The notes under the pieces are model-generated. The model was not told the DNA's origin and searched no databases. It saw nothing but the letters and a program-made list of their open reading frames with translations. From Paracoccaceae bacterium (GTDB taxonomy: Bacteria > Pseudomonadota > Alphaproteobacteria > Rhodobacterales > Rhodobacteraceae): DNA of 64,000 nucleotides. Position numbers and translations under genes: made by a program. Of this stretch, positions 30,559 through 32,692 are shown one piece after another; positions within the stretch are counted from its first letter, which is position 1; each line of letters opens with the position of its first letter. The DNA is taken from NCBI GenBank assembly GCA_021648025.1, contig JAKITO010000014.1:1-64000 (forward strand), read 5' to 3'.

Positions 30559-30702
30559 TTAACAGGCAGCAATTCGGAGAAAGTGTGGGAAAAGCATTGG
30601 CGGTCCTTTGAATGCCCGGTATCTGCCTTAAAACCGGTATCAGGCGGAAAATTGCCGGACAAGCAAGTATTCCAATATCGGGCGGTTTGCCTTAGGATTT
30701 CG

Positions 30703-30717
30703 TTAAGACGTTATTAA
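30703..30717 (+). promoter_or_regulatory. CtrA binding site
   Basis: TTAA-GACGTTA-TTAA, an exact match to the full CtrA consensus TTAA-N7-TTAA, 73 bp before the ATG of the receiver gene at 30791. No other perfect match was noticed in the window. CtrA in Rhodobacterales controls motility, gene transfer agent and c-di-GMP functions, so the gene downstream is a candidate regulon member. Confidence 0.8.
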
Positions 30718-30790
30718 TATCTTCTTCACATCACTTGGTGTTAGGGGATTGGCGCAATCAGAACCAAGGGGACGTGCCGGGTATCGTGAT

Positions 30791-31153
30791 ATGAATGTCT
30801 TGATTGTAGAAAGTAAACCAGAGCTGGGATCGCTTTGGCAGCGGCATCTGGAAAGGATGGGCGCTTTGGTGACCCTGGTCCAGAGCCAGGATGAAGCGAC
30901 CCTTGCCTTATGCAACGAGGATTATTGTATCATGGTTCTTGATCTGGTGCTGGACGAAGGCAGCGCCCTGGCCGTCGCAGATTTCGCCAGTTACCGCAGG
31001 CCAGACACGCGGGTGATCTTTGTCACCAACACCAGCTTTTTCTCGGACGGATCAATTTTTGCCCATAGCTCAAACGCTTGCGCATATGTGCAAAGCGCCA
31101 CGCCGCCTGAAGATCTGGCAGCTATGGTCGAACATTACGCGTCTACGCCCTAA
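30791..31153 (+). CDS. Single-domain response regulator, degenerate receiver
   Basis: 120 residues, just one receiver fold: MNVLIVESKP, then MVLDLVLDEGS with the phosphoacceptor Asp51, and VIFVTNTS. The usual acidic pair after the first strand is Glu7-Ser8, and the conserved Lys of the last loop (YLxKP type) is replaced in AYVQSATPPED by Ser102. Phosphorylation or switching is therefore probably altered. No output domain, so it acts by protein contact. A CtrA box precedes it. It overlaps the convergent GST gene by 4 bp at the stop codons. Confidence 0.85.
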   Translation: MNVLIVESKPELGSLWQRHLERMGALVTLVQSQDEATLALCNEDYCIMVLDLVLDEGSALAVADFASYRRPDTRVIFVTNTSFFSDGSIFAHSSNACAYVQSATPPEDLAAMVEHYASTP

Positions 31154-32347: not shown

Positions 32348-32692
32348 ATGTCTACTTATATGTCCAAAGAGGTCCGCGAGGGCCTGAAAGCTGCGCAGAT
32401 TGCTGCGTTGAAGAAAGCCAGCCGTTTGCGGGTGTTGGTGGGGGAGCAATATGTCCCGGTGCTGCGCCTTTGGAAAGACGGCTTTGCGGTCGAGGCCGAG
32501 AATGCCCCGGTGATGCGCGGGTTGGTCGATATCTATGATGGCGGGCGTCACATCTATCAGTGCCTGATTGTCGCGTCCGAGCTGGATGCAGGCGAGATGT
32601 GTTACGAATTCAAACGCAACACCAGCGCGCAGGACCACGCCCCGCTTGATTTCTATCGCGAGATCGAAGCGCCGGTTGGGTTGCTGGAATAA
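32348..32692 (+). CDS. Conserved hypothetical protein
   Basis: 114 residues, soluble. After a helical N-terminus (VREGLKAAQIAALKKASRL) it is mostly beta: RVLVGEQYVPVLRLW, GFAVEAENAPVMRGLVDIYDGG, HIYQCLIVASE, and a last helix-strand MCYEFKRNT. The strand pattern is reminiscent of a PilZ-like barrel, but the PilZ c-di-GMP motifs (RxxxR, DxSxxG) are not visible, so I do not assign it. It is convergent with the aminotransferase gene, 16 bp apart. Confidence 0.75.
   Translation: MSTYMSKEVREGLKAAQIAALKKASRLRVLVGEQYVPVLRLWKDGFAVEAENAPVMRGLVDIYDGGRHIYQCLIVASELDAGEMCYEFKRNTSAQDHAPLDFYREIEAPVGLLE

Follow-up and report, generated by a model that had tools for sequence, protein, structure and literature searches.

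The window, that is, the whole stretch of 64,000 nucleotides of Paracoccaceae bacterium DNA analyzed here (contig JAKITO010000014.1), carries a short gene for a stand-alone receiver protein, preceded by an exact TTAA-N7-TTAA motif, the pattern generally understood as a CtrA box. The features of the locus are listed below; residue counts refer to the best 150 orthologues listed by the family search that is described further on.

30692..30706, forward strand: upstream near-box with one mismatch (TTAGGATTTCGTTAA), having a half-site in common with the exact box
30703..30717, forward strand: exact putative CtrA box TTAA-N7-TTAA (TTAAGACGTTATTAA), its position kept before orthologues
30714..30728, forward strand: downstream near-box with one mismatch (TTAATATCTTCTTCA), overlapping the exact box
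30791..31153, forward strand: osp, whose 120-aa product is a single-domain pseudo-receiver predicted to inhibit CckA autophosphorylation and 53% identical to the protein of locus L291
30941..30943, forward strand: codon of Asp51 (D in 122, N in 24, S in 3 and Q in 1 of the best 150 orthologues)
31037..31060, forward strand: residues 83-90, FFSDGSIF, of the beta4-alpha4 stretch, near-invariant in the best 150 orthologues
31133..31135, forward strand: codon of His115 (H in 125, Y in 24 and a gap in 1 of the best 150 orthologues)
32348-32692, forward strand: gene for a small conserved protein without a Pfam match, whose counterpart in L291 lies 111 bp after osp

The initial annotation had described an exact TTAA-N7-TTAA located 73 bp before a lone receiver of 120 residues, which keeps Asp51 and has Glu-Ser in place of the acidic pair and Ser102 in place of the lysine; the arrangement was confirmed from the sequence, as was each of the residues (Glu7-Ser8, Asp51, Ser102), and the protein also has His115. 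The list of open reading frames gives a longer, TTG-started frame of 134 aa (start 30749), but the ATG at 30791 is favored as the start, since the orthologues align from there and an ATG occupies the aligned start in 119 of the best 150. The canonical set of a phosphorylated receiver (acidic pair, Asp and Lys) is incomplete in the window protein, with E7-S8 and S102 at the respective places. Its score with Pfam Response_reg is 28.1 bits, below the cut-off of 30.2, so that "degenerate" is a fair label for this receiver. In its own genome the gene is the sole place matching its own sequence at E <= 0.001, and a search of plasmids for osp gave 21 records, all with less than 60% identity (best E 7e-6) and none at the level of an orthologue.

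Correspondence with osp of Cereibacter sphaeroides

Osp was described in 2022 as a 120-residue single-domain receiver of Cereibacter (Rhodobacter) sphaeroides (RSWS8N_09785), having D51 and devoid of the acidic pair and the lysine; according to the available text of that study, a CtrA-type site precedes the ATG of osp by 54 bp, and the gene is flanked by a TetR gene, which ends 243 bp upstream, and by another gene starting 111 bp downstream (PMC9430884). The survey of the same study reports the gene across Roseobacteraceae, with putative CtrA sites before osp in many of these species (PMC9430884). Osp, a small protein resembling a signalling receiver, is known from marine and photosynthetic bacteria of one group and shuts off the kinase that heads a pathway of motility and the cell cycle. 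The accessible portions of two other papers (PMC4046655; PMC8116508) contain nothing on osp.

Cereibacter is absent from our named loci, which are the best 80 of 544 relatives and belong mostly to Ruegeria. In one of the genomes (G078), PufL is 100% identical to the sequence that we take to be the reaction-centre L chain of C. sphaeroides. Because of this identity G078 is taken as C. sphaeroides, the species assignment thus being based on PufL together with the distances given in the available text of PMC9430884. In the osp locus of this genome (L291) the upstream frame ends at 1757, osp occupies 2001-2363 and the next gene starts at 2475, which corresponds to gaps of 243 bp upstream and 111 bp downstream; the last base of an exact box is at -54, and the encoded protein has 120 aa with D51 and H115. 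These distances and residues equal the values given in the accessible part of PMC9430884. The upstream frame of L291 has a weak TetR_N match (17.2 bits vs the cut-off of 24).

Over 116 aa, the proteins of the window and of L291 share 53% identity (pair E 3e-44). Downstream of osp both loci carry the small conserved gene, a patB-like aminotransferase gene and def, the small protein of the window being 50% identical to its L291 copy. Each of these neighbors occurs near osp in 71 of the 72 named loci with full flanks (within the best 80 of 544), a count of presence irrespective of gene order. The upstream neighbor differs, being cobD in the window and the TetR-like gene in L291, and a homologue of rnhA is close to osp in L291 and separated from it by about 7 kb in the window. 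Judged by its sequence and neighborhood, the window gene is identified as osp, an orthologue of the published regulator, and is predicted to follow the published regulatory logic.

The CtrA box and the CckA-ChpT-CtrA pathway

Taken alone, the box of the window is not above chance. It is the single exact TTAA-N7-TTAA in the 64-kb window, at a mean expectation of 0.21 and with at least one such motif occurring in 18 of 100 shuffles. Across the whole own genome of 3.46 Mb the exact pattern is rarer than its reversed-pattern control (22 vs 47 occurrences), and consequently a CtrA box by itself is weak evidence.

Its conservation was assessed in 296 genomes of the family, searched with an alignment of 18 orthologues as the query. 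At E <= 0.001 as many as 295 genomes match something, the weaker matches resembling generic receivers. The orthologue sample comprises the best 150 matches listed, all with E <= 7.3e-43 and each from a different genome, among them the own one. As weaker orthologues beyond the best 150 are uncounted, the counts apply to the better-conserved members of the family. Within 300 bp of the start, 54 of these orthologues have an exact box, 67 have one with a single mismatch and 29 have neither, whereas control stretches (n = 1103) gave 0 exact and 17 one-mismatch boxes. With the own genome excluded from the best 150 listed, the counts are 53/149 and 67/149, respectively, and the box begins 60-110 bp before the start in 49 of the 53 exact and 60 of the 67 one-mismatch cases. 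Among the named loci (best 80 of 544), 64 exact and 12 one-mismatch boxes were found within 300 bp of the start; of 1486 random stretches of 300 bp, 6 contained a box with at most one mismatch and none an exact one. The spacers of the 121 boxes from the best 150 orthologues lean towards the consensus CCATTTG, most strongly at the last position (G in 91/121). CtrA control would not be universal, since in 29 of the best 150 orthologues no box within 300 bp has fewer than two mismatches; the box is missing in 7 of the 28 orthologues without Asp51 and in 22 of the 122 with it (best 150), a comparison with too few independent pairs to point either way. It is the position conserved before orthologues that makes the window box convincing as a putative CtrA site. 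A lack of such conservation, named in the initial annotation as one part of what would speak against its proposal, did not occur, at most one mismatch being present in 121 of the best 150.

In the window's genus, two near-boxes flank and overlap the exact box in 11-bp steps (30692-30728 in the window). At the place of the upstream near-box, a one-mismatch box is found in three loci of the same genus (L002-L004), while at that of the downstream one a single mismatch is seen also in L002 and two mismatches in L003 and L004. Extra half-sites with at most one mismatch accompany the 121 boxes in 7/121 cases upstream and 23/121 downstream, against 55/1089 in a control with upstream-side offsets only; this test being weak, the triple array is described for the window and its genus only.

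The own genome encodes CtrA (433 bits vs the NCBIfam cut-off of 350), a CckA-like hybrid kinase (best match NCBIfam CckA, 539 bits vs the curated cut-off of 1000), a ChpT-like protein (best match NCBIfam ChpT, 88.5 vs 240 bits, also passing Pfam HPTransfase) and a flagellin. Residues 386-448 of CckA, its DHp segment, agree with those of G078 at 52 of 63 positions; in G078, one TGA is flagged inside the aligned stretch of the CckA match and a 786-aa open frame is read. There are 26 receiver places in the own genome, of which the frames shorter than 150 aa are osp and one other. The latter has best matches of PhoB/YycF type, with 84 bits for YycF in PDB and 61.8 bits for the DivK chain, below many others; the NCBIfam model DVU0259_DivK gives it 66 bits at a cut-off of 160 and ranks below 19 other models. 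With the other short receiver matching best the PhoB/YycF types, no DivK was seen among the 26 receiver places of this genome, whose completeness of about 91% leaves the absence of divK unproven.

CpdR is a single-domain receiver of the CckA-ChpT-CtrA pathway, and its NCBIfam model is the best NCBIfam match of the window protein. This match, together with the exact boxes not exceeding the control genome-wide, could be taken to point to an ordinary phosphorylatable single-domain regulator of the CpdR or DivK kind that happens to stand behind a chance CtrA box. Such a reading is extremely improbable, as the match of 29.7 bits remains far below the CpdR cut-off of 180 bits, the residues and neighbors of Osp are present, and the box is conserved with at most one mismatch before 121 of the best 150 orthologues. 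A CpdR or DivK identity was rejected on these grounds.

Position 51, conserved residues and the predicted fold

In C. sphaeroides, as stated in the available text of PMC9430884, CtrA activates osp in a negative feedback loop, and loss of osp leads to the CtrA system being on. Osp binds the transmitter domain of CckA and blocks its autophosphorylation, about half at an Osp molar ratio of 0.25 and nearly completely at a ratio of 1, leaving CckA dephosphorylation unchanged; the inhibition affects CckA and not PhoR (PMC9430884). The protein is unphosphorylated, and its D51N and D51A variants are active, while a spontaneous change of His115 to Asp causes loss of function and a change at L391 of CckA confers partial resistance to Osp; Osp protein levels do not track osp transcription (PMC9430884).

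Family counts were made on the best 150 matches listed, the window protein being counted once. The full phosphorylation set (acidic pair, Asp51 and Lys at 101 or 102) is found in 0 of these 150 orthologues, and L187, L190, L191 and 25 other loci encode Osp orthologues in which Asn, Ser or Gln naturally occupies position 51. The protein tree is poorly resolved; parsimony on it gives 25 changes at this position, but only 4 independent pairs lie on supported branches. A limited search of the literature on CckA, Osp and CtrA, in the texts available, revealed no natural loss of Asp51, and we do not claim that it is unpublished.

These data bear on the phosphate sink proposed in the initial annotation, i.e., a receiver draining phosphate from CckA or ChpT. 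Asp51 is indeed kept in the window protein and in 122 of the best 150 orthologues, but the former is devoid of the acidic pair and Lys, and N, S or Q replaces the aspartate in 28/150. Moreover, the accessible text of PMC9430884 describes the C. sphaeroides protein as unphosphorylated, functional as D51N and blocking autophosphorylation itself, so that a sink is highly unlikely and was rejected. The "constitutive adaptor" of the same annotation fared better in one respect: independence of phosphorylation agrees with the activity of D51N and D51A (PMC9430884, in the available text) and with the 28 of the best 150 orthologues without Asp51, whereas "adaptor" is better replaced by "kinase inhibitor".

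Trp16, Asp64 and Phe84 are present in 150 of the best 150 orthologues. Within FFSDGSIF the counts per residue, out of the same best 150, are F83 143, F84 150, S85 148, D86 149, G87 149, S88 146, I89 131 and F90 149. The structure predicted from 35 sequences has a receiver fold (mean pLDDT 89.9), in which the fourth helix comprises only residues 88-91; as the confidence is lowest (68) in block 81-90, the shape of this loop should be read cautiously. Ordinary receivers are the nearest solved folds to the predicted structure, and a PDB profile search with Osp gave generic receivers only (best E 5.2e-9). The near-invariance of Trp16, Asp64, Phe84 and FFSDGSIF suggests a binding surface, perhaps for CckA. 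Tentatively, and with rather less than even confidence, we propose that Osp may be a pure protein-protein inhibitor outside phospho-signalling, in which Asp51 would be dispensable and repeatedly lost, whereas Trp16 (alpha1), Asp64 (alpha3), the remodelled FFSDGSIF and the shortened alpha4 would form the surface holding CckA, possibly gripping its CA domain and thereby keeping ATP away from the histidine.

More distant Osp-like receivers with 33-36% identity were noticed in L019, L020 and G010:C6:20095-20427 and may represent a second subfamily. In the genomes of L019 and L020 these are the closest matches obtained, while G010 encodes a clear Osp as well; L020 retains an FSDG motif.

The proposed feedback loop and comparison with known regulators

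In the proposed mechanism, CtrA would bind the box at 30703-30717, separated by 73 bp from the osp start (ATG 30791), and activate transcription. The product, predicted to adopt a receiver fold, has neither the acidic pair that binds Mg nor the switch lysine, and is therefore not expected to be phosphorylated; it would bind the hybrid kinase CckA at its transmitter (DHp-CA) domain, blocking autophosphorylation and sparing dephosphorylation. With CckA autophosphorylation blocked, the phosphate flow via ChpT to CtrA would fall. This negative feedback loop may replace the DivK/DivL control in Rhodobacterales. Very probably, then, the window gene is osp, coding for a CtrA-activated, unphosphorylated CckA inhibitor in a feedback loop, and by analogy we infer that the findings made in C. 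sphaeroides (CtrA activation, CckA inhibition and independence of phosphorylation) hold in the organism of the window. A lone unphosphorylated receiver could also inhibit a kinase other than CckA, in the manner of FixT, which acts thus on the autophosphorylation of FixL (PMC9430884, in the available text); the orthology and the neighbors in common with Osp, along with the published inhibition of CckA and not PhoR, make this very improbable. That the gene is tied to CtrA and the CckA-ChpT-CtrA network, as the initial annotation had it, is supported by the box before most of the best 150 orthologues and by C. sphaeroides Osp, which is CtrA-activated and acts on CckA (PMC9430884, in the accessible part).

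The osp find is real but already explained by published work: for a lone "broken" receiver under CtrA in Rhodobacterales the role, that of a feedback brake on CckA, has already been worked out. Beyond the available text of PMC9430884, our analysis adds the natural variation at position 51 and the near-invariant Trp16, Asp64, Phe84 and FFSDGSIF. The conservation pattern of the family amounts to a short list of residues for testing the phosphate-free inhibition of a hybrid kinase, and the orthologues that naturally lack Asp51 could serve directly as test proteins.

Like Osp of C. sphaeroides, the window protein has 120 aa, D51 and H115, with no acidic pair and no Lys; in both cases a CtrA box lies upstream, downstream neighbors are shared and the genome encodes CckA-, ChpT- and CtrA-like proteins. 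The two differ in sequence (53% identity) and in the box-ATG gap (73 bp in the window vs 53 bp); in the window, osp is separated from the small conserved gene by a glutathione transferase-like gene, and upstream of osp there is cobD, not a TetR-like gene. By its description, Osp is likened to FixT, the inhibitor of FixL, as a lone unphosphorylated receiver blocking kinase autophosphorylation (PMC9430884, in the available text), but its kinase is a different one, CckA instead of FixL. The window protein is set apart from CpdR by its score (29.7 bits vs the 180-bit cut-off). As in Caulobacter with DivK (and DivL), CckA is under the negative control of a single-domain receiver; DivK, however, acts phosphorylated and via DivL, whereas Osp acts directly and unphosphorylated (PMC9430884, in the part available).
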